A DNA stretch of 45,444 bases from an uncultured Clostridia bacterium (lineage in GTDB: Bacteria > Bacillota > Clostridia > Christensenellales > Borkfalkiaceae), in contig CANRGR010000005.1 of NCBI GenBank assembly GCA_947630245.1, positions 1 through 45,444 on the forward strand. Reading direction: 5' to 3'. Below, one piece after another: positions 8,297-42,406 of this stretch (within the stretch, counting starts at the first letter, position 1; each line of letters begins with the position of its first letter). The notes beneath the pieces are model-generated. The model did not search any database. It was not told where the DNA came from and saw only the letters and a list, made by a program, of their open reading frames with translations. A program made the translations under genes and the position numbers.

Positions 8297-8456
8297 GATC
8301 TCCTCCTCCGCCCTCTTTCCGCGTGCCGCGGCCGGGGGCGGTAGAATTGATTTTATCATGTCCGCCGCGCAAAAATTCGGGTATCGTAGCGAAATAGCGC
8401 TTTCTTTATCCGTTTCCCTTCCGCCCCCGCCGCGCAGACTTTTTTCGGGAAACCCC

Positions 8457-8485
8457 TTGCATTTTCTGCGCAAACGCGCTATAAT
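8457..8485 (+). promoter_or_regulatory. Sigma-A promoter of fba
   Basis: -35 TTGCAT, 17-base spacer, -10 TATAAT, with the fba ATG 27 bases further on and a GGAGG site at 8502-8506. The 216-base divergent gap to the lipoprotein gene shows no comparably good promoter for the minus strand; TAAAAT near 8350-8360 has no clear -35. Confidence 0.9.
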
Positions 8486-12957: not shown

Positions 12958-13605
12958 TCAGTTTTTCAAGACTTCCTTCATCGTTTCGACGGCGGCGGTG
13001 CGGTTGTCGCAACCCGTCTTTTCATAGATGACGGAGATGTAGTTGCGGGACGTCCCGTCGGTGAGTTTGAGCGCGGAGGCGATCTGCTTGTTCGTGAATC
13101 CCTCGCAGAGCATGAGCGCAATCTGCACTTCCCGCTCGGAAAATCCGAAGCGCCGTTTCAGCTTGATCTCCCGGTCGCTCGTCACCAACTTCGCGGCGTC
13201 GGCGATGCGGCGGGCGATCTTGGCGGGCAGAATCGTATCCCCCGCATAGGCGTTCTTCACGGCGTCGATGAGGGCGGAGGCGGAAGTGTCTTTGAGCAGA
13301 TAGCCGCTCGCGCCGTTGTTGATCGCGCTCAGAATATAGTCGCTGTCGTCGAAGGTCGTGAGAATGAGGACCTTCGTCTCGGGATTTTTGCGCTTGATCT
13401 CCATCGTCGCGATGACGCCGTTCATATTGGGCATGCGGATGTCCATGAGCACGACGTCGGGCTTTGCGCAGTCCATGAGAGACACCGCCTCGGCGCCGTC
13501 TTTGGCGATCCCGACAACTTCGAGATCGGGAGAGGTTTCGAGCACGCTCTTGATCCCGTCCGCGAGCAAGAGCTGGTCGTCTGCGAGCAGTACTTTGATT
13601 TTCAT
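12958..13605 (-). CDS. NarL/LuxR-type response regulator
   Basis: 215 residues: receiver domain (1-120) and a LuxR-type DNA-binding domain (about 148-210). In the receiver, acidic residues D9 and D10, the phospho-acceptor D55 in VVLMDIRMPNMNG, T83/T84 in ILTTFDD and K104 in YLLKD are all present. The output domain reads FGFSEREVQIALMLCEG and TNKQIASALKLTDGTSRNYI, where the usual T-V-K (TEGTVKNYI) is TDGTSRNYI. It regulates transcription when phosphorylated by the adjacent kinase. Its ATG overlaps the stop of the kinase gene (ATGA), and AAGGAGG lies in the kinase coding end, so the pair is translationally coupled. Targets are not evident; such pairs often control envelope-stress exporters, but none is adjacent. 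Confidence 0.93.
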   Translation of the reverse strand: MKIKVLLADDQLLLADGIKSVLETSPDLEVVGIAKDGAEAVSLMDCAKPDVVLMDIRMPNMNGVIATMEIKRKNPETKVLILTTFDDSDYILSAINNGASGYLLKDTSASALIDAVKNAYAGDTILPAKIARRIADAAKLVTSDREIKLKRRFGFSEREVQIALMLCEGFTNKQIASALKLTDGTSRNYISVIYEKTGCDNRTAAVETMKEVLKN

Positions 13606-14873
13606 TGCTTTCCTCCTTCGCTCCGCAGGTCCGCCGGAAGCGTAAGATGTATTTCGAATCCCTCGCCGGGTTCGGTCTCAAACCAGACCTGCCCGCCGAG
13701 GCTTGCCGCCCTCCGATGCATTCCGGAGAGCCCGAATCCCTCCTTCAATGCGGAGAGCTCCATCCCCTTGCCGTTGTCCGAGAGGAAGAAGCGGACGATC
13801 CCCTTCTGTTCTTTGAGTTCGAACCAGAAGGCGGTCGCGCCGCCGTGGCGGAGTCCGTTCGAGATTCCCTCTTTGAGCGTATTGGTCAAAAAGCGCGATT
13901 TGGCGTCGCACAGGCGCAGGTCCGCCACATCGTAGCGGAACGTGATGTCCGTCCCGTCCGAAGATTCGTGAATGATCGACAGCAGTTCCTCGCGGAGCGT
14001 GGGCCTCTGCTCCATGCCGGAGAGAAGGTGCACGCTCTCGCGGAGCTCTTCGAGGGCGTTCTTCGCTTGCAGATTCGCCGCCGCGAGTTTTCGCTTCGCG
14101 TCCTCGGGATCGGAATCGAGCACCAGCCGCGCCGCCTCCGTCTGCATGATGACGGTCGTGATCGAATGCCCCGCCGTGTCGTGAATCTCCTTTGCAATCC
14201 GCTGGCGCTCTTCCAAAAGCGTGACCGTTTGCAGTTCCAGATTCGCCGCCCGCAGTTTTTCGTTGCTCTCGTTGAGCTTTTGGTTGCTCTCGTTGAGCTC
14301 TTCGATCGCCTGCGCGATTTCGAGATTCTTTCGGTAGACTTGAAGGGTAAAATTGACGATGAGAAAGTGCAGAATGAGGACGATGAGATCGTTGAACGCG
14401 CTCGACACGCTCGCCCAGATGTTCAGCTCCCCGCTGCGGAATGCGCTCGAAATCGCAAACGTGGCAAGGAACAGCACGATACTGCACGCGCCCATCGCGA
14501 TACTGCCCGAGAGCTTCTTCTGGCTGAGATAAAATTCCGTGAGAATGACGACGTACATCGTCGAGATGAGCGCCCCATCCGTGAAAAAGGTGATGACAAG
14601 GAGCAGGAGCGTATCGAGGACGTAGCAGACGATCTTGTGTTTGAACGAGCGCAGTCCCCAGATCTTGACGGCGTTTTCCACGGCGAGCGCGATCTCCGCC
14701 GCAAGCGTGATCCAGATCCCGTATGAGATCATCGTGTCGAAATTGCTGGCAAAGACAACGACTTCCACGACGATGAGCACGGCAAAAATGAGCGCCTTCC
14801 CCGCGGGAATCAGCGTTTCGAGCCGCCCCTGCCTGAGCAGGGTGATGGGATTGTGCATCATTTTTCCGTTCAT
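13602..14873 (-). CDS. Membrane sensor histidine kinase, HisKA_3 (NarX/DesK-like) type
   Basis: 423 residues. About six hydrophobic segments lie between residues 25 and 178 (for example ALIFAVLIVVEVVVFAS and LLLLVITFFTDGALIS) with no large extracellular domain, so the signal is probably sensed in or at the membrane. A coiled coil follows (about 185-220), where NESNQKL and NESNEKL are a tandem duplication. The phospho-accepting His231 lies in RQRIAKEIHDTAGHS, the HisKA_3 signature. The C-terminal ATPase part has NTLKEGISNGLRHGG (N box), DNGKGM (G1) and GFGLSGMHRRA (G2). It is coupled at both ends: its ATG overlaps the stop of the radC-like gene and its stop overlaps the response regulator ATG. 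The ribosome site is weak, which fits dependence on coupling. Confidence 0.92.
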   Translation of the reverse strand: MNGKMMHNPITLLRQGRLETLIPAGKALIFAVLIVVEVVVFASNFDTMISYGIWITLAAEIALAVENAVKIWGLRSFKHKIVCYVLDTLLLLVITFFTDGALISTMYVVILTEFYLSQKKLSGSIAMGACSIVLFLATFAISSAFRSGELNIWASVSSAFNDLIVLILHFLIVNFTLQVYRKNLEIAQAIEELNESNQKLNESNEKLRAANLELQTVTLLEERQRIAKEIHDTAGHSITTVIMQTEAARLVLDSDPEDAKRKLAAANLQAKNALEELRESVHLLSGMEQRPTLREELLSIIHESSDGTDITFRYDVADLRLCDAKSRFLTNTLKEGISNGLRHGGATAFWFELKEQKGIVRFFLSDNGKGMELSALKEGFGLSGMHRRAASLGGQVWFETEPGEGFEIHLTLPADLRSEGGKQ

Positions 14874-15738: not shown

Positions 15739-17010
15739 ATGAATCAATATCTCGACGACGCGGTCAAAAGTATTGCGGAAAGCATCCGTTTCGATTCCTC
15801 CATTGCAAAACATTCAAAGGAATATCCCTTCGGCAAGGGCGCGGCGGACTGTCTCGGACATTTTCTGACGCTCGCCGAAACGCTCGGGTTTGAAACGCAC
15901 AATTACGACAACTATATCGGCGAAGTGATTTTCGGGGAAGGACCGGAAGAATTCGCAATCCTGTGCCATCTCGACGTCGTGCCGGCGGGAGACGGCTGGA
16001 CGAAGGATCCGTTCGGCGGAACCGTCGAGGACGGGAAGATCTGGGGGCGCGGCGCAACGGACGACAAGGGACCCGCCGTCTGTTCCCTGTACGCCTTGAA
16101 GGCGTTGAAGGACAAGGGCTTCCGCCCGCGCAAAAAGATCAAACTCATCGTCGGCTGCAACGAAGAGAGCGGTTGGGGATGTATCGAACATTACAACGAA
16201 GTCGCCACGATGCCGGAGACGGGAATCTCGCCCGACGCGGATTTCCCCGTCATCTATGCGGAAAAGGGCATTTTGCAGCTCCGTCTGCACTTTCCCCTGC
16301 CCCGTGCGCCCTTCCTTCATCTCGAAGGCGGACATCAGGCGAATATGGTATGCGATCACTGCGAGGCGACTCCCCGTTCCCTCACGCTCACAAAGACGCA
16401 GGAACTCGGGCTCTCCGTCCGTCACAAAAAAATCATCGCAACGGGAAAGAGCGCGCATGGCTCCACGCCCGAACTCGGCGAGAACGCCATTCTGCCCATT
16501 CTGAAATTCTTCGAGGGCAAGAGCGAAGTCGTACGGAGAGTGATCGACTGCGTTTTCAACGACATCTACGGGCTCCGCGAGCTCGAAGACGAGACGGGCA
16601 AGCTCACCATGTCCCCCAATATCATCAAATATCGGAAGGGACAGCTCCTCGTCGGCGTGGATATCCGCTATCCCGCCACGATTCCCGTGGAGAAAGTGCT
16701 CGAAAAGATTGCGCAGTTCGGCGTAAAATACGAGACCGTGCATTTCCAGCCCCCGCTCTTCAACGACAAGAACGGCGAGCTCGTGCAGACTCTTCTCACC
16801 GTCTACGAGCTCTGTTCGGGAAAGAAGGCGGAACCGATTGCCATCGGCGGCGGAACGTACGCCCGCGCGCTGAAATACGGCGCGGCGTTCGGTCCCGAGA
16901 TGCCGGGCGACGAACCCGTCATTCACATGGCGGACGAATATATCCGGATTGATCGCGTCGAATTTCTGCTGAACGTCTATGAGGCGGCAATCGAGCGTCT
17001 GACGAAATGA
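15739..17010 (+). CDS. M20 family dipeptidase, PepV/Sapep type
   Basis: 423 residues; a cytoplasmic metallopeptidase expected to split dipeptides for amino-acid recycling. Metal-site stretches are in order: CHLDVVPAGDGW (His77, catalytic Asp79), GRGATDDKGP (bridging Asp108), GCNEESGWGC (catalytic Glu142 and metal Glu143), ISPDADFPVIYAEKG (metal Asp), and IHMADEYI near the C-terminus (last His). The DADFPVIYAEKG stretch is characteristic of PepV/Sapep enzymes rather than of succinyl-diaminopimelate desuccinylase. At 423 residues it is slightly short of the roughly 460-470 of PepV, with the missing length in the lid domain. It has a consensus promoter and its own terminator, so it should be well expressed alone. 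The exact substrate range cannot be read from sequence. Confidence 0.92.
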   Translation: MNQYLDDAVKSIAESIRFDSSIAKHSKEYPFGKGAADCLGHFLTLAETLGFETHNYDNYIGEVIFGEGPEEFAILCHLDVVPAGDGWTKDPFGGTVEDGKIWGRGATDDKGPAVCSLYALKALKDKGFRPRKKIKLIVGCNEESGWGCIEHYNEVATMPETGISPDADFPVIYAEKGILQLRLHFPLPRAPFLHLEGGHQANMVCDHCEATPRSLTLTKTQELGLSVRHKKIIATGKSAHGSTPELGENAILPILKFFEGKSEVVRRVIDCVFNDIYGLRELEDETGKLTMSPNIIKYRKGQLLVGVDIRYPATIPVEKVLEKIAQFGVKYETVHFQPPLFNDKNGELVQTLLTVYELCSGKKAEPIAIGGGTYARALKYGAAFGPEMPGDEPVIHMADEYIRIDRVEFLLNVYEAAIERLTK

Positions 17011-17027: not shown

Positions 17028-17052
17028 CCCTCCCGCACGGGAGGGCTTTTTT
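17028..17052 (+). terminator. Rho-independent terminator of the dipeptidase gene
   Basis: Stem CCCTCCC / GGGAGGG, loop GCAC, followed by CTTTTTTG. Confidence 0.93.
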
Positions 17053-17155: not shown

Positions 17156-17184
17156 TTGCAAAGCGGAGCACGGTATGGTATAAT
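17156..17184 (+). promoter_or_regulatory. Sigma-A promoter of the NRPS operon
   Basis: -35 TTGCAA, 17-base spacer, -10 TATAAT preceded by TGG (extended -10), 59 bases before the MATE ATG. No other promoter is evident between the three genes, so this probably drives transporter, NRPS and PPTase together. Confidence 0.88.
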
Positions 17185-17243
17185 GGAATCCATAGGTCGT
17201 CGTGGCGTCGAAACGAAACCAAATCCGCTTCGGAAGAAAAATA

Positions 17244-18986
17244 ATGAAACAGCTCTCCCTGCAAAGGAACGGAAAAATCTTACAGAAAACATATCTGAGG
17301 TATTTCTTCCCCACCGTGCTCACCGCGATGGCGACCAATATCGCCGTTTTTGCCGACTCCATTCTGGCGGGAAATCTCCTGGGCGGGGAGGCGCTTGCGG
17401 CGATCAACCTGCTCTCCCCCGTCACGCAGCTCTATTTTGCGCTGACGGTTCTCCTCGGCTTGGGCGCCTCCACCGTGATCACCGCCGCCAGAGGAAAGAA
17501 CGACTCCGAATCCGCCGACCGCGCCTTTACGTCCGTCATTCTCCTCGCCGCGGCGATCTCCGCCGTCCTTCTTGCCGTCCAGCTCCCCCTTGCGCGCCCG
17601 ATCTGCGGCGTGCTTTCCGGCGATCCCCGTCTCATAGATCTTTCCTACCGTTATTATTTTCCCTTCATTCTCGGAACGCCGCTCCAAATCGCCCTTCTGT
17701 GCTCGGTGTATTTTGTGCGCGTCGACGGGCACCCCAACTATTCCTCCGCGGCGGTGATTGCCGCAAACGGCATCAATCTCTTCATGGATTACCTTCTCAT
17801 GGGCGTTGCAAAAATGGGAATTGCGGGGTCTGCGGTTGCCACGATCGTCGGAAATGCGGTGGGGCTTGCGATGATCGCCGTTTTTTATCTCATGGGCAAG
17901 GGGCGAGAACGCTTCCTTTTCTCAATCTTCAAATCTCCCCGCGCGTTCGGGAACAGCGTGCTGTCCGTCCTCTCCACGGGGCTCAGCGGCGCGGCGGGGA
18001 CGGCGCTCATCGTGCCGAAAATGTTTTTCCTCAACTATTTTGTACAGCGCATGGGCGGAAGCGACGCGATGGTCGTCTACTCGGTCTGTTCCTCCGCGAG
18101 CGTGATCGTCTCCATGTTCATCACGGGCGCGGCGCAGGCGATGATCCCCATCGTCTCCGTCTGCTATGCGGAAAAGGACTACGACGGCGTGAAGTACACC
18201 TTGAAACGGGCGGCGCTCGTCATGCTCCTTTGCAGTGCGGCGGTGACTGCCTTTGCCATGATTTATCCCGAGGGACTTGCCGCGGTGTTCGGATTCCGCG
18301 ATCCCGCCCTGCGCGGCGAAATGGTCTCCGCGCTCCGCATTTACGCCGTCTCTTTCCCCTTTTTGGCGTTCTCGTTTTTGATTCTCTATTACGATCTCGC
18401 CGTGAAGCGGAAAGGACTCTCTTTGATCTCCGCGGTGCTCGGCAACATCGCCCTGCAAATCCCCGTCACCGCTCTCTTCGGCGCCGTTTGGGGAATTGAG
18501 GGCGTGTGGTACTCCTTCTTTGCGGCGCAGGCGCTCGCCCTGCTTCTCTCCCTGCTCTCCGCCTTCCTCTTTTCGAAGATCAAAAAGAACGTCGGCGGAT
18601 TCTATCTCCTGCCCAAGACGGGCGGGGCGCTCTTCTCCCTTTCTTACTACGCGACGGCGGAGACCGCCGCTAAGGTCTCCGAACTACTTCAAACCAAGTT
18701 TTCCGCCTCTTTCGATCCCCTCCGCGCGAACAAACTCGCCGTCGCGGTCGAGGACTACACCGTCTGTCTGATCCGGAAGAGCGGACGCGGACGGGTGGGG
18801 GTCGACGTTTTGCTCTATGCGGATCCCGCCTTCTCTGTCGTCATCCGTGACGACGGCGCGGAGCAAAACCCGCTCGAAGGCGAAGAGGAGCCCTTCTCCC
18901 CCGCCGACGTCGTGAAGGACGTCGCAGACAACATCGCCTATTCCTCCGTGCTCGGAATGAATAAATTTTCTTTTGAAGTCAGGTGA
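17244..18986 (+). CDS. MATE-family exporter with C-terminal GHKL/SpoIIAB-like domain
   Basis: 580 residues. Residues about 10-450 form a twelve-helix MATE transporter, a cation-coupled exporter of small organic molecules: the two halves begin with FFPTVLTAMATNIAVFADSI and GLSGAAGTALIVPKMFF, and LVQ/VFG-type helices follow. MATE proteins are usually about 450 residues; here about 130 more follow. That tail (KLAVAVEDYTVCLIR, FSVVIRDDGAEQNP, DVVKDVADNIAYSSVLGMN) lines up with anti-sigma-factor ATPases of the SpoIIAB/RsbW type, but the N-box Asn is replaced (EDYTV for E-x-x-x-N), so ATP binding is doubtful. The ATG at 17244 with GGAAG is preferred over a GTG at 17202. Its stop overlaps the ribosome site of the NRPS gene, only four bases separate the genes, and it is the obvious candidate exporter of the NRPS product. 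Confidence 0.9.
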   Translation: MKQLSLQRNGKILQKTYLRYFFPTVLTAMATNIAVFADSILAGNLLGGEALAAINLLSPVTQLYFALTVLLGLGASTVITAARGKNDSESADRAFTSVILLAAAISAVLLAVQLPLARPICGVLSGDPRLIDLSYRYYFPFILGTPLQIALLCSVYFVRVDGHPNYSSAAVIAANGINLFMDYLLMGVAKMGIAGSAVATIVGNAVGLAMIAVFYLMGKGRERFLFSIFKSPRAFGNSVLSVLSTGLSGAAGTALIVPKMFFLNYFVQRMGGSDAMVVYSVCSSASVIVSMFITGAAQAMIPIVSVCYAEKDYDGVKYTLKRAALVMLLCSAAVTAFAMIYPEGLAAVFGFRDPALRGEMVSALRIYAVSFPFLAFSFLILYYDLAVKRKGLSLISAVLGNIALQIPVTALFGAVWGIEGVWYSFFAAQALALLLSLLSAFLFSKIKKNVGGFYLLPKTGGALFSLSYYATAETAAKVSELLQTKFSASFDPLRANKLAVAVEDYTVCLIRKSGRGRVGVDVLLYADPAFSVVIRDDGAEQNPLEGEEEPFSPADVVKDVADNIAYSSVLGMNKFSFEVR

Positions 18987-18990
18987 AAAA

Positions 18991-21900
18991 ATGAATGTCT
19001 TGCAAATGTTCTTCCCCACAGCCAACATGGATCTTCCCGCCGTCGTAGACTGCGACGGAAAGCGCGTGACGACTTACCGCGAACTGCTGCTGCTTGCCTC
19101 CGACGCGGCAAGAAAGCTGAAAGAAGCGGGCGTAAAACGGGGCGGTGCGGTGATCGTCCAGACGGCGCGCACGCGGGATTTTCTCGCCGCCGAACTCGGC
19201 GCGTTCCTTTTGGGCGCGGCGGCGATTCCGGCGCTTGAAAGCTATCCCGAAAATCGGGTCGCCATGATCGCCGAAAACGCGGGCGGAGCATTCCTTGCGC
19301 GCGGGAGGTTCTTCCCGCTGCGGGAGGCGGACGACGTGTTCCCCGCGGCGGAGATCGAAGAGGACGACGAGATCTTTCTCGTCTACACCTCCGGTTCCAC
19401 GGGAAAGCCGAAGGGCGTCGTCTACACGCTGAAATCGTTCGTGGCGGCGTATGAGCGCTCCAACCTCCATGTCCGCGACATCTCTCCTCTCCGTTTCGGC
19501 GCTTCCGCTCCGTTCACCTTTATCGCAAGCGTTGTCGAATGTTACACGACGCTCTCGCTCGGCGGCTGCGTTCATCTCCTCTCGAACGAGACGCGCTCCG
19601 ATATCGGACGTTTGGAGACATACTATGCCGAGCACGGCATCACAATCGGATTTATGAGCCCCAAAGTTCTGAAACTGTTCCAAAAGAAGGGCGACAGCCT
19701 CAAACGGATTCTCACGGGCAGCGAGCGGCTCTCGGATACCTACAAAGACGATTTCGAAGTCTATAATTGCTACTCCCAGAGCGAGGCGTTCGGGGTCTGT
19801 TCCTTCCTCGTCGACCGCGCCTATTCCAATACCCCCGTGGGAAAGCCTCTCCCGGGAGTGGATATCCTTCTCCTCGACGAAAAGGGCAATCCCGTACGCG
19901 ACGGGGAGGAGGGCGAGATCTGCGTGCGCGGCGTCTTTGCGGCGGGATATAAAAATATGCCCGAGGAGACGGACAGGGTCTTTGTCAAAGACGGCGATCT
20001 GACGATCGTGCACACGGGCGATATCGGGAAAAAGCTCCCCTCGGGCGATCTTCTGTTTGTCAACCGCAAGGACTGGATGGTCAAGATCAACGGACAACGG
20101 GTGGAACCGGGCGAAATCGAGAGCGCGCTTGCCGCGATCCCCGGGATCTCCCAGGCGGTGGTGAAACATTTCTCGCCGGATTCGGGGGCTTACCTTGCGG
20201 CTTACTACGTCTCGGAGAAAGAATTGAGCAAACGTTTCCTGCGCGAAACGCTTCTGAAAACCCTGCCCGCATACATGCTCCCCTCCTACTTCGTGCGGCT
20301 CGACAAGATGCCCGTCAACATCAACGGCAAGACCGACCGCACGGCGCTTAAACCGCCCGTTTTGGGCAAACGGAGCGCCTATGTAGAGCCCGAAAACGAC
20401 GCGGAACGGGCGTTGGCGGCGGCATTCGAGCAGGTGCTCGGCTGCGGCGTCGTGGGCGCGGAGGACGACTTTTTCGACCTCGGGGGAGATTCGATCAAGG
20501 CAATGCAGCTCCAAACCGTGTGCGGGCTTCCCGCTCTCTCCTCCTCCGCTGTGTTCCGCGGCAGAACGCCGCGCGGGATCGCCGCACTGCTTCCCGCCGA
20601 AACGGTCGATCCGTACGAAGAGGCGAGCGCCTCCGAATCGGATGTGAGCCCGCTCACGGCGGAACAGCTCGGCGTCTATGTCGCCTGCGTCAAGACGCCG
20701 GACGGGGTCATGTACAACAACCCCATTTCCTATGAACTTCCCGGGGGCGTGGACGAAACTCTTCTCGAACAGGCGCTCTGCGCCGTGGTGAAGGCGCATC
20801 CCGCGCTCAACCTTCGCATCGAGACAAGGGACGGCGTGCCCTGCATGGTCAAGGATCGCTCCGCCTTCCGCATGGAGCGCATCGAGGCGGAGGACGCGGA
20901 ATCCGCCATGCGGGCGTTTGTGCGCCCCTTCGACCTCTCGCAGGCGGGATTTTACAGATTCGCGCTCCTCAAAACGCAGGGCGCGCGCCATCTTCTCGCC
21001 GACTTCCATCATCTGATTTTCGACGGCACGTCGCTCGGCGTCATCTGCAAAGAGATCGCGCTCGCCTATCGCGGTCTGCCGCTCGAAGAGGAGCGGTATT
21101 CGATCTTCCTGTCGCATGACGTGGAAAAGCGCGCGGAGACGACGGAAGAGTACCGCAAAGCGCGCGATTTCTTCGCCCGCTCCCTCGAAAATACCGAGGC
21201 GTCCGCCGAATTTGCCGAGGACTGCGAAGCGGCGGAGCAGAGCGGCTGTCCCGCCGAAGAGATCGTCCGTCCGCTTACGATCCGCGTTCTTGACGCGGAG
21301 ACGTTCGCGCAGAACTGCGGCGTGACGCCCGCAAGCTGTTTCCTTGCCGCCTATGAATATTCGCTCGCGAAATTCTTGGGACAGACGGAGATCCTCGCCT
21401 ACACCGTGCATCACGGCAGAAGCGCCGCCGTCGCGGAGTCGGTGGGCATGTTCGTCAGGACCCTTCCCCTCTATGCGAAGATCGACGAGACCGCCCGCGT
21501 CGCCGATTTTGTGAAGAGCGCCGACAGGGCGCTCCGCGAGACGGTCGCGCACAGCGTCTATCCCTTCCATCATCTTGCCGAGGAATACGGGCTCTCGGCG
21601 GAATTTCTGTTCGCTTATCAGTCGGATTCGTTCAACGCCCTCTCGCTCGCGGGAGAACATATCCCCGCCCGCAATATCCCCGTAAAGAATGCGCTCTCCA
21701 AGTTCAATCTCATGCTCTTTAAGGAGGGAGACGGCTATTCCGTGCGCTGTTCCTACCGCTGCGATCTCTACCGGATGGAGACCGTGAGCTCCTTCCTGCG
21801 GCTGTTCGAAACGGTCGTCGGGCAGTTCTTCGAAGCCGGGACGCTGCAAGAGATCAAGCTGTGCGGGGAGGAAGAACTTCGTCTGCTCGACCGCTTCAAC

Positions 21901-24900
21901 GAGACTTCCGCAGAACCGCCCGCAGGCGGAAACGTTGTGGATCTTCTGCGCGCGCAGGCAAAGAGAACGCCCGAAAAAAGAGCGGTCGTGTTCGGCGAAA
22001 AGTCCTTCACCTATGCCATGCTCGACGACCTTTCGGACCGTCTCGCTTCGCGCCTTGTTTCGCTCGGCGTCAAGCGGGGGGACGTCGTCTCCGTGCTCAT
22101 CGGGCGGAACGAATATATGGCGATCGCCTCCATCGGCGTTTTGAAGGCGGGCGCCGCCTATCAGCCCCTCGATCCCTCCTATCCCGAGGAGCGGCTCAAC
22201 TTCATGATCGCGGACGCAGACGCCCGCCTTGTCATCACGGAGAGATCGCTCCGAAATCTCGTCTCCGAATTTGCGGGCGAGACGCTCTACACCGACGAAA
22301 TTCCCGCCCTTCCCGCGGCAGAATCTCTTCCCGCCTCCCCCTCGGCGGACGATCCCTTTATCCTGCTCTACACTTCGGGGTCGACGGGCACACCCAAAGG
22401 CTGCGTCCTCGATCACGGAAACCTCGTCGACTTCATCCTCTGGTATCACCGTTTCTACGGGCTCGGCGAGACGAGCCGCGTCGCCGCCTATGCGAGCTAC
22501 GGGTTCGACGCCTGCATGATGGATCTGTATCCCACGCTGACGACGGGAGCCGAACTGCATATTCTCGACGAGGCGATCCGTCTCGATCTCGTCGCCATCG
22601 GCAAGTACTTCAACGAGAACGGCATCACCAACGCCTTCATGACGACGCAAGTCGGCAGGGCGTTCGCCGCCTCCGTAAAAGCGGACACGCTGAAAACGCT
22701 CTCCGTCGGCGGAGAACAGCTCGTTCCCCTTCCGCCGCCCGAGGGCTATGCGCTCTATAACGCCTACGGTCCGACCGAATGCACCGTCTTTTCGACGATC
22801 CAAAAAGTCGACGCGCTCTATCGCCGCGTGCCGATCGGAAAACCCATCTCGGATTTTAAGGCGTATGTCCTCGACGCGCAGGGAAGAAGGCTTCCCGTCG
22901 GCGCGGCGGGAGAGCTGTATCTTGCGGGCAGACAGGTCTCCCGCGGATATCTCAACCGCCCCGAAAAGACGAAAGAGGCGTTTCTTCCCAATCCCTTCAC
23001 ACAGGAAAAGCCGTACGACAGAATGTACCGCACGGGCGACATCGTGAGATTTTTGCCAAACGGCGCTCTGGACTTTGCGGGACGGCGCGACGGGCAGGTG
23101 AAGATCCGCGGCTTCCGCATCGAACTCCCCGAAGTCGAGGGCGTGGTCCGCAGGTTCGAGGGTGTAACGGACGCGGCGGTGATCGCAATCGACGCCGCAA
23201 ACGGCGGCAAGGAACTCGCGGCGTTCCTTTCGGGTCCCTCCCCCATTGATCTCGACGCGCTGAAAGCCTTTATCGGCGCGGAAAAGCCGCCCTATATGAT
23301 TCCGTCCGTGATCGTGCAGATCCCCAAAATCCCGCTCAACGTCAACGGCAAAGTGGATCGCAAAAAATTGCTTCAACTCAAACCCGAGTCGAAGAAGGTT
23401 GAACGGGAGCGCCCGATGAGCTATCTCGAAACGGTCATCGCGCAGATCGTCGGAAAGATTCTCGGCACGGAAGCGCCGCCCTCCACCGAAAACCTTCTCC
23501 TGTACGGATTCAATTCCATCTCCGTGTTGCGCCTCGCCGTGGAGATCAACAAGGCGTTCGGATACGAATGCGACGTAAAGCAGATGATGAAGGGCGTGAG
23601 CGTCTTTTCGCTCTCCGACGAGATCGGAAGATATCTTCTGGAACATCGGAGCGGGGAGAAAACCCGCGAAGAGCACGTTCGCCGCAGCGTTCCCCTCTCG
23701 TCGAGCCAGTTCGGCGTCTATGCGGACAGCATGAAGCACCCCGGCTCCACCCTCTACAACATTCCGCTCATCTTCGCCTTCCCGAAGTCGTTCGACGCGG
23801 ACCGTCTCCAAGACAGCGTCGAAAAAGTTCTGCGCGCGCACCCCTATCTCGCGACGTCGGTCGCCGTGCAAAACGACGCGATCGTGCAAAATTTCTCGTC
23901 CGAACTCCATCCCGAAATCACCCGCCTCACCGTGACCGACGCGGAGGCGGAGACTTATACCGATTGCTTTGTGCGTCCCTTTGCGCTCTCCCGCCCTCCC
24001 CTCTACCGGATTGCCGTCCTCGAAGCGGAGAGCGCGGTTTGGCTGCTCATGGACTTCCACCACATCGTGTTCGACGGAGCGTCGGCGGATCTCTTGCTGA
24101 CGCAGCTCAAAACCGTCTATGAGGGCGGAACGATTCCGAACGAAGAGTATACCTATTTCGACTACGCCGCCGCGGAGGAAGAGCGGAAGGAGAGCGAAGA
24201 GTATGCCCGCGCCGAAAAATTCTTTGCGGACATGCTGAAAGACTGCGAATCCGCCTCCGAGCTCTCCCCCGACCTCGCCCGCGAACAGGCGATGGAGGGC
24301 TTTGCAGAGGAATTTCTTCCCATCGACGCCGAACAAATCACGGCGCCCGCCGCAAAGGAGGGGATCACGCCCGCCGCGTTCTGGCTCGCCGCCACGGGCT
24401 ATGCCCTCTCCCGCTTCGTCAACAGCCGGACCGTCTATCTCAATACGATCTCCAACGGCAGGAGCGACCTTAAAACCGCGAATTGCTTCGGCATGTTCGT
24501 GCGCACCCTGCCCGTCACGGTTCGGGTGGAGGAGGACAGCGTTCTCTCGTTTTTGAAAAAGACGGGAGGGACGCTTCGCGCCGTCATCGAGCACGAGATC
24601 TATCCCTACTCCGCCGTTTGCGAGAAATACTCCTATGCGCCCAACATCGTCTATGAATACCAGCTCGACGTCCTCGGCGAGCTCGTCATCGACAAAACGC
24701 CCATTCCCCAGAAGATTTTGCCGCCGAGCGAGACGAAGTTCAAACTCGCCGTGCACATCGAGAAAAGGAACGGCGCCGCCGGCGTGACGGTGCAATACGA
24801 CCCGTCGCTGTATTCGAAGGCGCTCATGCAGACGCTCGCGCGTTCGATCTGCAATGCGGGCGCGCGCATGTCGGAAGATCTTACATCCCCCGTGAGAAAG

Positions 24901-27885
24901 ATCTCCCTGCTCGACGGAAAGCAAACGGCGCAGCTTGCGGCGTTTGCGGTCTCCCGCGAGGGCGAGATTCCCGTCAAGACGCTGCACGGTCTGTTTGAAA
25001 AGCAGGTTGAAAAGACGCCCGACCGCCGCGCGATCGTTGCCTGCGACGGGACGTTTACCTACCGCGAGGCGGACGAGCGCGCCAACGCCGTCGCCAATCG
25101 GCTCCTCACGCTCGCCGCCAAAGAGAAGCGCGTCGCCGTGCTCCTTCCGAGAACCGCCGCGGCGATCCTCTGTATCCTCGGGGCGTTGAAAGCGGGATTT
25201 GCATTCATTCCCGTCAACCCCGAATACCCCGAGGAGCGCGTCCGTCTCATTCTCGACGACAGCGACGCCGACTACATCATCGCGGAAAAAGAGCTCGCCG
25301 CCCGCTATCCGAACGGGTTGGACGCACAGGCGCTCCTTGCCGAAGAGAATACAAAAAATCCCCATGTCCCGGTCGATCCCGACGATCTTGCCCATCTCAT
25401 CTATACCTCGGGCTCCACGGGTCGTCCGAAGGGCGTCATGCTCCGCCATCTCGGCATTGCGAACTATCTCACCGACGTCGAAGAAAACTTACAGGTACAT
25501 CTCGTCACGGAACACTGTAACGTCTACGGCGCGCTGACGACGTTTGCGTTCGACATGTCGCTGAAAGAGACGATGCTCTCTCTCACGCACGGGCTCACGC
25601 TCGCCATTGCCGACGACGAACAGGTCGTCAACCCCGTCAGTCTCACCGAATTCTTCCGCAAGAACCGGGTGGACGTCTGCAACGGCACGCCCTCCCGCCT
25701 TCTGCAATATACGGAATACGAACCCTTCCTCGCCTGTCTCCGGAACTGCAACGTCATCCTCTCGGGCGGGGAAAAATACCCCGATACCCTGCTCCGTCTT
25801 TTGAAAAACAACACAAAGGCGCACATTCTCAATACTTACGGTCCCACCGAGATCACCGTCTCCTCCAACTGCAAGGAACTGACGAACGCCACCGCGATCA
25901 GCGTCGGGAAACCGCTCTATAACTATCGGGAATACATCGTGGACGCCGACGACAACCTTCTGCCCGTGGGCGTCGTGGGCGAACTGCTCATCGGGGGCGT
26001 GGGCGTCGGGAAGGGCTACAACCATCTCGAAGAACAGACAAGAAAAGCGTTCGTCGAATTTTGCGGCGAGCGGGTGTACCGCTCGGGCGATTACGCCAAG
26101 TGGACGGAGGAGGGCGACGTCGTCATCCTCGGCAGGACGGATACGCAGGTGAAGATCCGCGGACTGCGCATCGAACCGGGCGAGATCGAAAGCGCGCTTG
26201 CCGCAATCCCCGGGATCAGACGCTCCGTCGTGCTCATCAAAAAAGTCGGCGCGGCGGACGCGCTCTGCGGCTACTATACGGCGGACAGGGAGTTCGATCA
26301 GAAGGAGCTCAAAGGGATGCTGTCTGAAAAGCTCGCCGAATACATGGTGCCCCAATACCTCGTATTCCTCCAAGAGATGCCCCTCACCCCCAACGGCAAA
26401 GTGAACGTGAAGGCGCTGCCCGTGCCCGAATCCGAGCACCGCGACGGAGCCCTTCCCCGCACGGAGACGGAAAAACTCTTCTGCAAGATCTTTTCCGAAA
26501 TCCTCAAAACGGACGGCGTGTATGCCGACGACAACTTTTTCGAGATCGGCGGCTCCTCCCTCACGGCGACCCGCATCATCATCGAGGCGGATAAGCGCGG
26601 AATCGGGCTTGCGTACGGCGATGTGTTCAAATATCCCACGCCGCAAAAACTCGCGGCGTTCGTGGGAGACGGGAATATCAAATCGGAATTCGACGACCTC
26701 GGAGCCTTCGACTATTCGAGAATCGACGCCCTTCTTTCGCACAACACCCTCGAAAACTTCCTCACGGGAGAGAAGAGACCGATCGGGAATCTTCTCCTCA
26801 CGGGCGCGGGCGGGTTCCTCGGAATCCACATTCTCAAAACGTTCCTCGAAAATTATGAGGGGAAGGTATTCTGCCTGCTTCGCGGCAAGCGCGGAAAAAC
26901 CACGCAGACCCGTCTGACGTCGCTCTATTTCTACTACTTCGAAAAGGTTCTTTCCGCAGACTATCCCGAGAGAATCGAAATCATAGAGGGCGATATTACT
27001 TCGCGGACGGATCTCGAAAAGCTCGGCGCATATCCCATCGACACCGTGATCAACTGCGCCGCAAACGTGAAACACTTCTCGGAAAAAACGGATATCGAGG
27101 ACGTGAACTATTACGGCGCGATGAATCTGCTCGAATACTGCCGCCGCGCGAACTGCCGCTTTGTGCAGATCTCCACGATGAGCGTGGGCGGCGTCTTTGT
27201 CGGCAAACAGGGTCCCGTCGAAAACATCACCGAGACGCAGCTCTATTTCGGGCAAAAGCAGATATCCAAATACACTCTCTCCAAATTCCTTGCGGAAAGA
27301 GCCGTCCTCTCGGCGGGCGCCGAGGGCGCGGACGTCAAAATCATGCGCGTCGGAACGCTCGCGCCGCGGGAATCCGACGGGGAATATCAGATCAATTTCC
27401 TCACCAACACCTTTATGGGACGGCTGAAATCGGCATATCTTGTCGGGGCGTACCCCTATTCGCAGGAGGAGACGCCCTTCGAGCTCTCCCCCATCGACTC
27501 CGTCGCCGACGCCGTTTTGCGCCTTGCCGAGACGCCCAAGTCCTGCGTCGTCTTTCATCCCTATAACAACCATAACCTGCTCATGGGCGATCTCTACCGT
27601 GAGCTCAACGAGGCGGGGCTCCCGATCCGTGCCGCCGAGGAAGAGGAATACGACCGGCTGCTTGCGATCGCCAAACAGGACGAGGAAACCGCAAAAGTGC
27701 TGTCGAGCGTCATCGCCTATCGGAATATGGCGCACGGAGAGCGCACTTTCTCCGTCGGAAAATCCAACCGCTATACGATGCAGGTGCTCTTCCGCCTCGG
27801 GTTCCGCTGGCCGGCGACTTCGCGGGACTATATGGTGAAGTTCATCCGTCTGCTCAAAGGGCTCGGCTATTTCGAAAAACACTGA
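18991..27885 (+). CDS. Trimodular NRPS, A-T-C-A-T-C-A-T-R, predicted to make an N-acyl dipeptide aldehyde or alcohol
   Basis: 2964 residues. Domains: A1 (5-455), T1 (Ser501 in GGDSIK), C1 (about 545-965; active site HHLIFDG at 673-679), A2 (about 985-1465; ATP loop YTSGSTGTPKG), T2 (Ser1509 in YGFNSIS), C2 (about 1560-1975; HHIVFDG at 1690-1696), A3 (about 1990-2475), T3 (Ser2523 in IGGSSL) and a terminal reductase (about 2595-2964; NADPH loop TGAGGFLG at 2604, Tyr2761 and Lys2765 in YTLSK). No thioesterase or epimerase is present. All three A domains keep the Lys of motif A10. A2 and A3 keep the substrate-binding Asp (Asp1173, Asp2188), but A1 reads FIASVVE where others read FDASVWE, so Ile178 replaces it, and YGPTE is YSQSE. 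A1 should therefore load a carboxylic acid other than a normal alpha-amino acid. The ATG at 18991 follows AGGTGA; an upstream TTG in frame is less likely. Confidence 0.93.
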   Translation: MNVLQMFFPTANMDLPAVVDCDGKRVTTYRELLLLASDAARKLKEAGVKRGGAVIVQTARTRDFLAAELGAFLLGAAAIPALESYPENRVAMIAENAGGAFLARGRFFPLREADDVFPAAEIEEDDEIFLVYTSGSTGKPKGVVYTLKSFVAAYERSNLHVRDISPLRFGASAPFTFIASVVECYTTLSLGGCVHLLSNETRSDIGRLETYYAEHGITIGFMSPKVLKLFQKKGDSLKRILTGSERLSDTYKDDFEVYNCYSQSEAFGVCSFLVDRAYSNTPVGKPLPGVDILLLDEKGNPVRDGEEGEICVRGVFAAGYKNMPEETDRVFVKDGDLTIVHTGDIGKKLPSGDLLFVNRKDWMVKINGQRVEPGEIESALAAIPGISQAVVKHFSPDSGAYLAAYYVSEKELSKRFLRETLLKTLPAYMLPSYFVRLDKMPVNINGKTDRTALKPPVLGKRSAYVEPENDAERALAAAFEQVLGCGVVGAEDDFFDLGGDSIKAMQLQTVCGLPALSSSAVFRGRTPRGIAALLPAETVDPYEEASASESDVSPLTAEQLGVYVACVKTPDGVMYNNPISYELPGGVDETLLEQALCAVVKAHPALNLRIETRDGVPCMVKDRSAFRMERIEAEDAESAMRAFVRPFDLSQAGFYRFALLKTQGARHLLADFHHLIFDGTSLGVICKEIALAYRGLPLEEERYSIFLSHDVEKRAETTEEYRKARDFFARSLENTEASAEFAEDCEAAEQSGCPAEEIVRPLTIRVLDAETFAQNCGVTPASCFLAAYEYSLAKFLGQTEILAYTVHHGRSAAVAESVGMFVRTLPLYAKIDETARVADFVKSADRALRETVAHSVYPFHHLAEEYGLSAEFLFAYQSDSFNALSLAGEHIPARNIPVKNALSKFNLMLFKEGDGYSVRCSYRCDLYRMETVSSFLRLFETVVGQFFEAGTLQEIKLCGEEELRLLDRFNETSAEPPAGGNVVDLLRAQAKRTPEKRAVVFGEKSFTYAMLDDLSDRLASRLVSLGVKRGDVVSVLIGRNEYMAIASIGVLKAGAAYQPLDPSYPEERLNFMIADADARLVITERSLRNLVSEFAGETLYTDEIPALPAAESLPASPSADDPFILLYTSGSTGTPKGCVLDHGNLVDFILWYHRFYGLGETSRVAAYASYGFDACMMDLYPTLTTGAELHILDEAIRLDLVAIGKYFNENGITNAFMTTQVGRAFAASVKADTLKTLSVGGEQLVPLPPPEGYALYNAYGPTECTVFSTIQKVDALYRRVPIGKPISDFKAYVLDAQGRRLPVGAAGELYLAGRQVSRGYLNRPEKTKEAFLPNPFTQEKPYDRMYRTGDIVRFLPNGALDFAGRRDGQVKIRGFRIELPEVEGVVRRFEGVTDAAVIAIDAANGGKELAAFLSGPSPIDLDALKAFIGAEKPPYMIPSVIVQIPKIPLNVNGKVDRKKLLQLKPESKKVERERPMSYLETVIAQIVGKILGTEAPPSTENLLLYGFNSISVLRLAVEINKAFGYECDVKQMMKGVSVFSLSDEIGRYLLEHRSGEKTREEHVRRSVPLSSSQFGVYADSMKHPGSTLYNIPLIFAFPKSFDADRLQDSVEKVLRAHPYLATSVAVQNDAIVQNFSSELHPEITRLTVTDAEAETYTDCFVRPFALSRPPLYRIAVLEAESAVWLLMDFHHIVFDGASADLLLTQLKTVYEGGTIPNEEYTYFDYAAAEEERKESEEYARAEKFFADMLKDCESASELSPDLAREQAMEGFAEEFLPIDAEQITAPAAKEGITPAAFWLAATGYALSRFVNSRTVYLNTISNGRSDLKTANCFGMFVRTLPVTVRVEEDSVLSFLKKTGGTLRAVIEHEIYPYSAVCEKYSYAPNIVYEYQLDVLGELVIDKTPIPQKILPPSETKFKLAVHIEKRNGAAGVTVQYDPSLYSKALMQTLARSICNAGARMSEDLTSPVRKISLLDGKQTAQLAAFAVSREGEIPVKTLHGLFEKQVEKTPDRRAIVACDGTFTYREADERANAVANRLLTLAAKEKRVAVLLPRTAAAILCILGALKAGFAFIPVNPEYPEERVRLILDDSDADYIIAEKELAARYPNGLDAQALLAEENTKNPHVPVDPDDLAHLIYTSGSTGRPKGVMLRHLGIANYLTDVEENLQVHLVTEHCNVYGALTTFAFDMSLKETMLSLTHGLTLAIADDEQVVNPVSLTEFFRKNRVDVCNGTPSRLLQYTEYEPFLACLRNCNVILSGGEKYPDTLLRLLKNNTKAHILNTYGPTEITVSSNCKELTNATAISVGKPLYNYREYIVDADDNLLPVGVVGELLIGGVGVGKGYNHLEEQTRKAFVEFCGERVYRSGDYAKWTEEGDVVILGRTDTQVKIRGLRIEPGEIESALAAIPGIRRSVVLIKKVGAADALCGYYTADREFDQKELKGMLSEKLAEYMVPQYLVFLQEMPLTPNGKVNVKALPVPESEHRDGALPRTETEKLFCKIFSEILKTDGVYADDNFFEIGGSSLTATRIIIEADKRGIGLAYGDVFKYPTPQKLAAFVGDGNIKSEFDDLGAFDYSRIDALLSHNTLENFLTGEKRPIGNLLLTGAGGFLGIHILKTFLENYEGKVFCLLRGKRGKTTQTRLTSLYFYYFEKVLSADYPERIEIIEGDITSRTDLEKLGAYPIDTVINCAANVKHFSEKTDIEDVNYYGAMNLLEYCRRANCRFVQISTMSVGGVFVGKQGPVENITETQLYFGQKQISKYTLSKFLAERAVLSAGAEGADVKIMRVGTLAPRESDGEYQINFLTNTFMGRLKSAYLVGAYPYSQEETPFELSPIDSVADAVLRLAETPKSCVVFHPYNNHNLLMGDLYRELNEAGLPIRAAEEEEYDRLLAIAKQDEETAKVLSSVIAYRNMAHGERTFSVGKSNRYTMQVLFRLGFRWPATSRDYMVKFIRLLKGLGYFEKH

Positions 27886-27946
27886 ACGGGTTCCGCCCGT
27901 GGGTTCTGCACAAGACCCGTCCCATACTCATACGCGAGGCAATCTC

Positions 27947-28660
27947 ATGAAACTGATCATCACAAATCTCTACGGAGTCACGAAAGAGGAAACGGAGACG
28001 GCGATCGCATGTTTCCCGCCGGCGAGAAGAGCCGAAATCAACCGCCTTATCGTCACACGCGACCGCGCCCGCAGCGCCGTGGCGGAGGCGACGGTGCGGC
28101 TCGAAATTATGCGGACGTTGCACATTCCGGACGCAGACATCAACATTGCGCGCACGGAAAACGGAAAGCCGTATCTTTGTGGATATGACGGATTTTGCTT
28201 CAATCTCTCCCATTCGGGCGACTATGCGGTCTGCGTCACCGATTCTCTCCCCGTCGGCGCGGATGTGGAGCAGATCCGCCCGATTGACCATGCGGCAATC
28301 GCCGAACGCTGGTTTACGCCGCAGGAGCGCGAAGAGATCTCCCAATCCGACAACCCGCTCCCCGCCTTCTTCCGCGTCTGGACTGCCAAAGAGAGCGTTT
28401 CGAAATGGCTCGGGACGGGGATTTCGGAACAATGGAAAACACTCAATGTCGCAGCGGGCAGATCGCGAGCGGACGCGGCGTATGAGATCAACTCTTTCGG
28501 GCTCGCGCGCGAAGCGGACGCGCTGTCCCCGCTCGGCGGCTCGTCCGAGTACGCGCTCTCCGTCTGCCGCACGCCGGGCGGCGGAACGACCGACGTGCGC
28601 TTCTGCCGCGCGGACGTCCTTTTGCACGAGTATCTCGCCGCGCACCTGTTGACGAAATAG
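27947..28660 (+). CDS. Sfp-type 4'-phosphopantetheinyl transferase
   Basis: 237 residues. It transfers phosphopantetheine from CoA to the conserved Ser of carrier domains, here surely the three T domains of the adjacent NRPS. Family stretches: GKPYLCGYDGFCFNLSHSGDY (ends in the FNLSHS motif), VGADVEQIRP with the metal-binding Asp and Glu, and FFRVWTAKESVSKWLGTG, the W-x3-KES-x3-K motif with catalytic Glu and Lys. The ATG at 27947 has a GAGG site and starts with the family N-terminus (MKLIITNLYG); a GTG 48 bases upstream adds residues with no similarity. It lies 61 bases after the NRPS stop and before a strong terminator, closing the operon. The primary acyl-carrier-protein synthase would be elsewhere in the genome. 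Confidence 0.93.
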   Translation: MKLIITNLYGVTKEETETAIACFPPARRAEINRLIVTRDRARSAVAEATVRLEIMRTLHIPDADINIARTENGKPYLCGYDGFCFNLSHSGDYAVCVTDSLPVGADVEQIRPIDHAAIAERWFTPQEREEISQSDNPLPAFFRVWTAKESVSKWLGTGISEQWKTLNVAAGRSRADAAYEINSFGLAREADALSPLGGSSEYALSVCRTPGGGTTDVRFCRADVLLHEYLAAHLLTK

Positions 28661-28677
28661 AGCAAGATCGCACGATA

Positions 28678-28708
28678 AAAGGCTTCGTACATCACGAAGC
28701 CTTTTTTT
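28678..28708 (+). terminator. Rho-independent terminator of the NRPS operon
   Basis: Stem AAAGGCTTCGT / ACGAAGCCTTT, loop ACATC, ending in a run of seven T. Confidence 0.95.
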
Positions 28709-28760: not shown

Positions 28761-31700
28761 TCAACTGTTTACGGTGAGCGTCGCTTTGCCGTCCTCCCCT
28801 ACTTGAATCGTAAAGACGACGCCTTGCACGCTGAGCGTGTATGTTTCCGACTCGGCATCGTAACTGCACGTATCGGGGTGGAAGAAATAGTTGCCATAGC
28901 GGAATACCATCACTTCGCGTCCGCCGTCATCGGTTTCGATGTATTGGAAGAAGCTCACAAGGTCGGTATAATACACGGTGGTTGCCTTTTTCACTTCGAA
29001 CTTTTGAAGAGTGACTTCATCGCCGTCCTCGTTATAACCGAAGTTGACAAAGTACCAAGTGGCGCTCTCGATCAAGCCCGTATCGCCCGTGGTGTAGGTG
29101 CCGACATAGTAGCCGCCCGTCTCGTCATCGAAGGCAAACCGCGCGGTTATCCATTCGATTTCTTCACCCGTGCCGACGCCGATTTCGGGCATGAGCAAAC
29201 TCCCGACCGTGACGCCGTTCGCCTCGGTATAGAGCACTCTCTGCACGCGCACCGTGTAGCCATCCTGTTCGAGCGTATAGACGCGGCTGAACGTGTAGCA
29301 ATAGAATCCCGCGCCGTACAAGCCGAGATCGGAGAGCGACTGCACCGTGAAATCGAGCACATAGGGCTTTCCGTCCGCTCCCGTGAAGTTCACAACAATG
29401 CCCGAAGAGGAGAGTTCGATATCTTCTCTGCCCGCTTCGATCGTTCCGATCGTCTTGCCCGTGCTGTCGGTGAGCCCCATATCGGGGCCGAAATGCGCTT
29501 CGAACTTCATATGCTCCGAATCCGCATCGCCCGAAACGGTATAAGGCGTGGTGAGGGTTATGGAGCCGAAGGTGTTCTCCAACGATTGCGCGTAGCTCGA
29601 CCCGTAGTACTGCGTGACGTACGCATACAGATAGGCGTAAGCGTAGGCATTGTATTCCTCAATCATATTCATGCCCGTGATCGTGTAAGTGCAAGTGAAC
29701 TTGCCTGCCGCGATTTCGAGATGAAGATCTATCATAAATTGGAGATACACATTGTAATCCGCTTGCAACAAGAGATAAGCTTCCGTGACATCGTCCTCTA
29801 CGATGCGCACGAGCGCCGCGGTGAAGTTGCTTGCGGCGGAGCCGTTGCGCATGACGAGCACGACCGTGGAGACGAACGTCTCCGCACCCGAAGGATAGAA
29901 CAGGAAGTCTTCGAGATTGTATGCGCCGCCGTCCGAAAGTTTGATCGGATATTTGGTGGATTCTTCCGAGCGCGTGAAGTGAAGCCCCGTTCCGTCGCTC
30001 AGGTAGTAATCCTTCCCCTCGAAGTTGACTTGTTGGTTGAAGGAACCGAAGCTGTCAATCTGCACAAATCCGTAGGGATTGCAATTTCCCGCATCGGGAT
30101 CGTGCAAATAGAGGGTGACGTTGCCGTTCTCCTCCTGATAGTAGAAGTAGCGGGTGGAACCGTTCGAGATCATGTACCCGTACGTCGTGAAGCGGAGCGC
30201 CTCGAAATTCTCGCTGTAATAGGTCTTGGCTTGGAGTTCGACGGGCGTTGCGGTCCCCTTAGCGGGATCGTACCGATACACACAGGCAAAACTTCCATCC
30301 GTGTTCACATAGTAGAGAAGGGTCTCGGTGATGATCGTGTAAGTACCCGTTTCGACGCCGCCCGTTGCGCTGTTGCGCACGGCGTTCCCGAGATTGTCGA
30401 GCACGAGCGTGGACCAATCTTTCGGGTTGAGATAGGTGGCGACGACTTCCTCGTAAGAGATGATGAGCGTGGGATATCTGCTGTCGGAAATGGTAAGCAG
30501 CGCGAGGGTGCCCACGAGGGTAACCGTTTGGCTCGTGCCCGTAGGCGTGTAAGTGACGGTGATCCCGCCGTCCTCGCCAAACACATAACTGCCCGTGCCC
30601 ACGACTTCGATTTCGCCCTCGGAATCATCGTCCGTCACATACAGCGTGGCGCCGTTCTTGCCGTCGAGTTTAAGAAGCGTTTGACGGATTGCATTGTTGT
30701 CGCAAATGAGATATTCGCCGTACTCGCCGCCGAGCTCCGAGAACGTACCGTTGCCGATCTCGAAATAGAACACATAATTGTTCGTCGTATCGTAGAAGCA
30801 GAGAACGTTCTCTTCCGCTTTATAGAACATTCCTTCGAAAGTGCCCTCGCCCCTTTGATAGGAACCGTACATGTAGCCATCGAGCATGAGGAACCCGTCC
30901 GTGGTACTGAAATCCCCCGCATACGCTTCCCGATACTTTGCAAAGTAGGTCGCGGAAGAGCCCGCTATGCAGATGAAATCGAACTCCACCGTCTGATCCG
31001 CAGACTGAAACTTGTAGATATAATTCCCGAAATCGGTGTAGGTGGGAGTGCCGTCTGCCGCGCGGACCGCGGTCGCAGTGCCCTGCTTTACCGTTTCGCC
31101 TTCGGTGTAAGTTGCGCCGCCCTTGCCGTCGAATTGAAGGGAGACCGTCCGATCAATCAAGTTCTCCTCATTGACGTAATATACCGAACCGTAAAGGAAG
31201 GGAGAGATGAGGGTGAACTCCTGACCCTCGATGAGGAAATACGCCGTGGTGTATTGCGTCTCGCTGAGCATATAACGGACGACGAGGAAATCTTCCATTT
31301 CTGCGGCAACGCCCGAGATCGTCGTATCTCCCTTTTGGTAGATCGCAAAACCGCCGACCAGAGTGAGTTTGCCCGCGTCATCCGCCGCGTTCTTTTCGGT
31401 GTATTCTTTCTCGCAGTTCGTGGTTTCGCCGTTTGCGGTGACCGACCACCAATAGGCGCCGTCGATTGCCACGACCCCGTTGCTCTGCGTCGTGACAAGC
31501 ACTGTTTGGACGGAGAACGTGAATGCCGTCATGTTGAAAATATCAAAGGGCAACGTATCCACGATTCCCTCGACGTCCTTCACGGTGTTCGTCACCGTTG
31601 CAAGATATCTGCCCGTTTCATCGCTGAACTGCAAAGTGCCTTCCGCGATTTTGACGATGTACGTATTCATAAACAGCCCGTAGAGGGTGAACGTCTTTGC

Positions 31701-39516: not shown

Positions 39517-39528
39517 ATCCCTTCCTCC

Positions 39529-42398: not shown

Positions 42399-42406
42399 GG
42401 TTTACA

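Follow-up and report, generated by a model that had tools for sequence, protein, structure and literature searches.

A three-gene operon of an uncultured Clostridia bacterium and its predicted N-acyl dipeptide aldehyde product

What compound would a bacterium make and secrete with one exporter gene, one nonribosomal peptide synthetase (NRPS) gene and one 4'-phosphopantetheinyl transferase (PPTase) gene? The question is raised by a locus at positions 17156 to 28708 of the 45,444-nucleotide stretch analysed here, referred to below as the window (contig CANRGR010000005.1, assembly GCA_947630245.1, from an uncultured Borkfalkiaceae bacterium of the class Clostridia). An earlier note, made before any database search, had proposed an N-acyl dipeptide aldehyde, and this interpretation as a whole is partly supported. 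We find that the operon is real and apparently intact, and that it probably makes and exports such an aldehyde; the best reading of its sequence is a ruminopeptin-like fatty acyl-(hydrophobic amino acid)-Glu-aldehyde.

The MATE, NRPS and PPTase genes form one operon with a promoter and a terminator. They are tightly spaced on one strand (ATG start codons at 17244, 18991 and 27947), and the NRPS gene starts four bases past the MATE stop codon. Pfam, profile hidden Markov models (HMMs) and the sequence itself bore out what had first been seen, that is, one promoter, a MATE, an NRPS with adenylation (A), carrier (T), condensation (C) and reductase (R) domains in the order A-T-C-A-T-C-A-T-R, an Sfp-type PPTase and one terminator. 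The latter, unlisted by a simple first signal scan, was read from the sequence itself, and its hairpin folds far better than shuffled versions (z −4.37, 0 of 200 shuffles as good). Upstream, an M20 peptidase gene (15739-17010) ends in its own terminator-like hairpin at 17028-17045; downstream, the next gene lies on the opposite strand and is convergent. Pfam detected on the NRPS three AMP-binding, two Condensation and three PP-binding domains and a terminal NAD_binding_4 (thioester reductase) domain. Active-site motifs were found in the C, T and R domains. The loader is followed by two amino-acid modules, in which A2 and A3 retain Asp235 and both C1 and C2 carry HHxxxDG, and the protein ends in a reductase with nucleotide and Tyr/Lys motifs, which is the gene criterion for R-terminated gut peptide-aldehyde clusters. 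C1 and C2 are the sole condensation domains at E ≤ 0.001 in the host assembly (1.70 Mb, 99 contigs, 94% complete). Outside the three operon genes no tailoring enzyme appeared among the 26 window proteins run against Pfam (part of all frames, some of them surely not genes), in line with the earlier claim that the cluster holds no other tailoring gene.

We then looked at the substrate of the loading domain, A1. Asp235 is taken here to pair with the substrate amine, and the 235-331 pocket numbering and its meanings are likewise assumed. When LgrA (FSFDGSALD) was aligned with A1 (FTFIASVVE), the amine-binding Asp position corresponded to an Ile in A1. Position 235 held Ile or Val throughout an initial set of seven A1-like domains, that of the window among them; across the A1 clade the residues at this position are Ile, Val, Ala, Leu and Cys, and other pocket positions vary. 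The pocket code of A1, IAVFLGCG (last position gapped), is hydrophobic. A species-genome scan was queried with the window loading A domain; of 571 relatives the best 80 were taken, giving 80 loci whose counts describe the clade and not an unbiased rate, as a query of the A1 type favours A1-like sequences. With HMM coverage above 75%, Asp235 was absent from 73 of the 79 A domains standing first in their frame and present in all other A domains (100/100). The 73 include two distant single-A proteins, and the six first-position domains with Asp come from four loci (L120, L126, L127 and L129).

Trees of the A and C domains, both built with FastTree only, were compared with these counts. Once rows at least 72% identical or shorter than 380 residues were dropped (197 to 118), the Asp/non-Asp split of the A domains amounted to one change (97, starred). 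The window A1 falls within a 50-row clade (99, starred) in which every member is devoid of Asp235. This clade divides into a group of 12 rows, of which 10 are A-T-C-only proteins, and one of 38, made up mostly of NRPS loaders together with a few A-T-C-only proteins (L042, L051, L107). The C domains mostly sorted by position: the window C1 sits among first C domains and the window C2 among later ones, though accounting for the four position groups takes eight changes against a minimum of three. This tree was computed without loci L120-L122 and L124-L129 (132 rows to 112), and its long-branch warnings include the window C1. Because A1 is without Asp235 and belongs to a non-Asp clade, these data support A1 as a putative acyl starter loader and disfavour a free-amine product. 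A pyrazinone or other free-amine compound was therefore rejected as the leading reading, and the imine or pyrazinone that the earlier note had derived from a free amine fits poorly with a loading domain of the acyl type.

It could still be argued that each of the three A domains activates an amino acid, which would give a free-amine tripeptide aldehyde cyclising to an imine or related ring. A1 is overall like amino-acid A domains, and the AusA model spans much of the NRPS, though well under its cut-off; however, Asp235 is missing in A1 of the window, of a sister copy described below and of all members of the 50-row clade, and we regard this product as very improbable. A starter other than a fatty acid (a 2-keto, 2-hydroxy or aryl acid), leading to a differently capped dipeptide aldehyde, fits the evidence somewhat better, as the latter shows only the absence of Asp235, with position 235 and the rest of the pocket varying across the clade. 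Yet the pocket is hydrophobic, the NRPS has no ketoreductase domain and no aryl-acid enzyme was found among the 26 scanned window proteins, so that such a starter seems unlikely.

As to the two amino-acid modules, the A2 code DAMFSGAVF suggests a hydrophobic residue and Lys239 of A3 an acidic side chain, taken as Glu, if the substrate meanings that we assume for A-domain codes hold. Among the 43 A domains located directly before an R domain in the scan, 31 had Lys239 and 26 the code DMKN(M/L)GTVS, many of them from related Ruminococcus. The R domain of the window matched 6vtj (239 bits), the R domain of AusA (122 bits) and MxaA (57 bits). AusA releases an aldehyde. Since this known aldehyde releaser outscores MxaA, the order of the matches favours aldehyde release. 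Some R domains, MxaA among them, reduce by four electrons, and an N-acyl dipeptide alcohol would then be formed; with MxaA only among the weaker matches and 6vtj and AusA ahead of it, we consider the alcohol quite unlikely. The N-acyl dipeptide aldehyde first proposed thus gains sequence support both from A1 without Asp235 and from an R domain near those of 6vtj and AusA.

Taken together, the following pathway can be proposed. The PPTase would arm the three carriers, as its family suggests. A1 would adenylate a carboxylic acid that has no alpha-amine and load it onto T1; the clade of A1 and its loss of Asp235 make a fatty acid of medium or long chain the most likely substrate. C1 would couple the acyl group to the residue selected by A2, probably hydrophobic, C2 would add the A3 residue, probably glutamate in view of Lys239, and R, with NAD(P)H, would free the thioester as an aldehyde, as expected for its family. 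The MATE protein would export the product, and its RsbW-like tail may, speculatively, link export to signalling. Because the N-terminus would be blocked, no pyrazinone should form, and the free aldehyde could therefore inhibit serine or cysteine proteases, perhaps Glu-specific endopeptidases.

Several points weigh against this pathway. LgrA and the other nearest solved relatives of A1 activate amino acids, overall similarity of A1 says nothing by itself on a fatty acid, and loss of Asp235 fits keto, hydroxy or aryl acids too; in addition, the scan that places A1 in its clade was made with an A1-type query. The residues given for A2 and A3 are guesses from their codes, T2 carries the variant motif GFNS, and R could yield an alcohol instead. 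No sequence named R. bromii, the ruminopeptin organism, is among the A-domain scan matches listed, and DHxxxDS was not seen in the C domains of the A-T-C-only relatives. Lastly, the HATPase tail of the window exporter is degenerate, and its N-box Asn is replaced. The positions of all features are collected in Table 1.

Table 1. Coordinates of the operon, its signals and the NRPS domains within the window.
Feature	Position	Strand	Basis or remark
Promoter TTGCAA-17-TATAAT, extended −10	17156..17184	+	10 of 12 consensus bases
MATE exporter with C-terminal RsbW/SpoIIAB-like HATPase domain	17244..18986	+	Pfam MatE, E 1e-29
RsbW-like tail of MATE, ~135 residues	about 18575-18983	+	HMM of 35 other tails
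NRPS, 2964 residues, A-T-C-A-T-C-A-T-R	18991..27885	+	Pfam and own HMMs
A1, loading, without Asp235 (FTFIASVVE), predicted acyl-activating	18991..20400	+	
T1 carrier, LGGDS	20401..20640	+	
C1, HHLIFDG	20641..21915	+	
A2, code DAMFSGAVF, hydrophobic amino acid predicted	21916..23385	+	
T2 carrier, variant motif GFNS	23386..23670	+	
C2, HHIVFDG	23671..24945	+	
A3, code DMKNLGTVS, Lys239, Glu predicted	24946..26430	+	
T3 carrier, GGSS	26431..26730	+	
R, terminal thioester reductase, GAGGFLG and YTLSK	26731..27882	+	
Sfp/AusB-like 4'-phosphopantetheinyl transferase	27947..28660	+	Pfam ACPS and AASDHPPT_N
Intrinsic terminator, hairpin and T7	28680..28708	+	Sequence, and folding against shuffles

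Is the cluster maintained? A three-module NRPS with an A1-type loader was found in one other of 101 same-genus genomes (own included), G859. In a comparison with 30 kb of G859, the only matching span of the window was 17224-28614 (84.7%); the gene order was identical and the NRPSs were 87% identical. The upstream operon boundary is supported because the match stops there and the upstream flanks differ over about 18 kb; since the G859 contig stops inside the PPTase gene, the comparison covers the upstream edge. The ratios of nonsynonymous to synonymous substitution (dN/dS, Nei-Gojobori) between the two copies were 0.13 for MATE, 0.14 for the NRPS and 0.34 for the PPTase (partial, 3' end missing), and between 0.09 and 0.17 for the individual NRPS domains. 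These low values show that the operon proteins are under constraint by purifying selection. In G859, a promoter TTGCGA-17-TATAAT with an extended −10 lies at the same place, and A1 is also without Asp235. That the cluster is decayed or silent and gives no product might be suggested by the loss of the N-box Asn and by the presence of the three-module NRPS in just that one other genome of the genus; but with three open frames, motifs in place, dN/dS of 0.13-0.34 and similar promoter hexamers, we find this scarcely credible. A palindromic operator over the −35 sequence was rejected: its stem needs G-T pairs, on the minus strand only, no inverted repeat was found, and the region is asymmetric in G859. 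Horizontal gain showing as an odd GC content was rejected as well: 3-kb windows give 57-61% over the cluster, 56-63% upstream and 54-57% downstream. On contig 8 of G859, the open reading frame just upstream of the cluster starts, by eye, like a putative LacI-type regulator.

The exporter carries an additional domain. An HMM made from 35 other MATE tails, the window being left out, matched the window tail at 4.7e-14. Pfam HATPase_c_2 was called in 4 of the 4 relatives' tails tried and gave no call on the tail of the window's own MATE. In nine cluster-bearing genomes, the NRPS-adjoining MATE frame was 590-596 residues long in every case, and most other listed MATE frames were 445-560 residues; four longer ones (562, 562, 596 and 636 residues) lie outside the tail comparison. 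Some relatives (L079, L080) have a SpoIIE phosphatase with its own HATPase adjoining the cluster. A tie between the tail and regulation is plausible.

How widespread is this arrangement? A search for the same architecture beside a MATE gene, which had been suggested as a check, found the complete A-T-C-A-T-C-A-T-R frame at 20 of the 80 loci, although in L052 the second T was undetected by HMM. A MATE gene lies on the same strand within 1 kb in 18 of these 20 loci, in its tailed form in 16; a PPTase gene was found in at least 5, a lower bound given by an HMM from one sequence. A-T-C-A-T-R was found at 14 of the 80 loci (nine with MATE) and A-T-C alone at 11 (three with MATE). A1-type matches with frames of about 3000 residues occurred in two others of 297 genomes of the order and five others of 391 of the class, the latter count using a strict cut-off set from the score gap in the order search, which may miss distant members; the architecture and an adjoining tailed MATE were confirmed in all seven. 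A search with the R domain alone (E ≤ 1e-20) matched 6 of the 151 genomes of the family, the host among them. Taxa titled among the scan matches include Lachnospiraceae, Oscillospiraceae, Ruminococcus, Bacteroidales, Prevotella, Muribaculaceae, one Euryarchaeota metagenome-assembled genome (MAG) and others, with the proviso that MAG labels may be contaminated. As judged from its sequence, the A1-type loading domain is common in gut and rumen NRPSs and so not the unusual feature it had been taken for. Searches of literature titles and abstracts returned no account of the loading-A clade or of the MATE-HATPase fusion, though neither is thereby shown to be unpublished.

Other relatives are of interest in their own right. 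On the contig titled Euryarchaeota MAG (L062), a PPTase, a tailless MATE and an A-T-C-A-T-C-A-T-R NRPS lie in a row. Shorter A-T-C-A-T-R relatives with the terminal code DMKN(M/L)GTVS (L061, L067, L068, L071, L073, L074, L077, L078, L080, L081, L083, L084, L086 and L099) are predicted to make an N-acyl amino aldehyde. The A-T-C-only proteins of about 1000 residues with a non-Asp A domain (L042-L045, L112-L119), some of them near a MATE gene, possibly make fatty acid amides, their link to fatty acid amide enzymes being a loose one. A stand-alone non-Asp A protein in L047 was dropped as a fatty acid amide system: no adjoining C domain was found, and its neighbours are of glycosyltransferase, deacetylase/acetyltransferase and cytidylyltransferase type.

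The domains of the window NRPS do not all have the same closest relatives. In BLAST comparisons with the scanned NRPSs, sister copy excluded, A1, C1 and A2 were nearest either to L050, L053, L096 and L051, which are of the Lachnospiraceae type, or to L062, and C2, A3, T3 and R to L090, L079, L065 and L082; T1 and T2 were nearest to others. The A3 domains of L050, L053, L062 and L096 carry codes different from that of the window A3, and in the A-domain tree those of L050 and L062 sit in a starred clade other than its own. This suggests that the window NRPS is a mosaic of two lineages, in which a past exchange near C2 would have changed the last residue. Such an exchange is likely but would be old, because the best domain matches outside the carriers are only 35-59% identical. 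A broader scheme can be advanced tentatively, which we hold possible but doubtful. In it, the non-Asp loading-A clade would provide a further, widely shared acylation route for gut peptide aldehydes, supplying R-terminated NRPSs that hold one, two or three amino-acid modules and occur in Clostridia, Bacteroidales and the MAG labelled Euryarchaeota. The RsbW-like switch on the exporter would link export with partner-switching regulation, and module exchange between lineages would alter the residue at P1 and, with it, the protease that is inhibited.

Around the operon, the minus strand encodes a histidine kinase with HisKA_3 and HATPase_c (13602-14873), which lies upstream with the genes for RadC and the M20 peptidase in between. 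It further encodes two large Listeria-Bacteroides repeat proteins (28761-33785 and 5168-8473), the first of which has a lipoprotein-like N-terminal start and converges on the operon, a BspA-type leucine-rich repeat protein with six stretches (33809-36703) and a row of MoxR-type AAA, DUF58, BatA-like and VWA genes (36700-43525).

Altogether, the operon is probably a credible new example of the known gut aldehyde-inhibitor clusters and not an unprecedented one. Within a small-genome bacterium it offers a complete and compact set of three genes for what is probably a protease inhibitor, and it points to a predicted acyl-loading A route that is common in gut and rumen bacteria. Such a simple operon allows direct tests of the acyl-X-Glu aldehyde predicted for it and of the targets of this compound, and the exporter with a switch-type ATPase tail raises the separate question of how product sensing or control works in these clusters.

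Aureusimine synthetase AusA has two modules and yields pyrazinones through a free amine. The window shares with AusA/AusB an NRPS ending in R and a partner PPTase, but both proteins are far under the equivalog cut-offs of their best NCBIfam matches (NRPS to the AusA model, 1419 bits against 2500; PPTase to the AusB model, 78 bits against 225), and the window has an extra loading module without Asp235. NRPSs of the BGC0001686 type begin with a starter C domain using acyl-CoA, and ruminopeptin targets Glu-specific endopeptidases. The product predicted for the window is of the class made by the former, from which the window differs by a dedicated A-T pair that would load the acid. The link between gut clostridial NRPSs and protease-inhibiting peptide aldehydes, mentioned in the earlier note, is in print, since PMC8518294 describes a protease-inhibiting acyl dipeptide aldehyde from such a Clostridium cluster. 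For ruminopeptin, PMC12327764 places the rup pathway in Ruminococcus bromii. The acyl-hydrophobic-Glu order predicted for the window matches it, a likeness drawn from predicted codes and not from the rup sequence. In a gut precedent for acyl loading, OaaA activates oleic acid and loads it onto a carrier, and in OaaA/OaaACP/OaaC the C domain then forms an amide (PMC13142362). There, however, three separate proteins act on a free small-molecule amine acceptor, without peptide or R, whereas the window encodes a single megasynthase; moreover, C domains of fatty acid amide synthases are often of the (D/H)HxxxDS type, unlike the HHxxxDG of C1 and C2. The best solved R match, 6vtj, is, we presume, from Methanobrevibacter ruminantium. 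The M. ruminantium paper (PMC2812497) reports an NRPS adjoining a MatE gene for both mru0068 and mru0351, with mru0068 flanked by two serine phosphatases and an anti-sigma factor antagonist; its last domain is a thioesterase in the text and a thioester reductase in the legend of Figure S8 (PMC2812497). mru0068 begins with a C domain and belongs to an archaeal host, whereas the NRPS of the window begins with an A domain.

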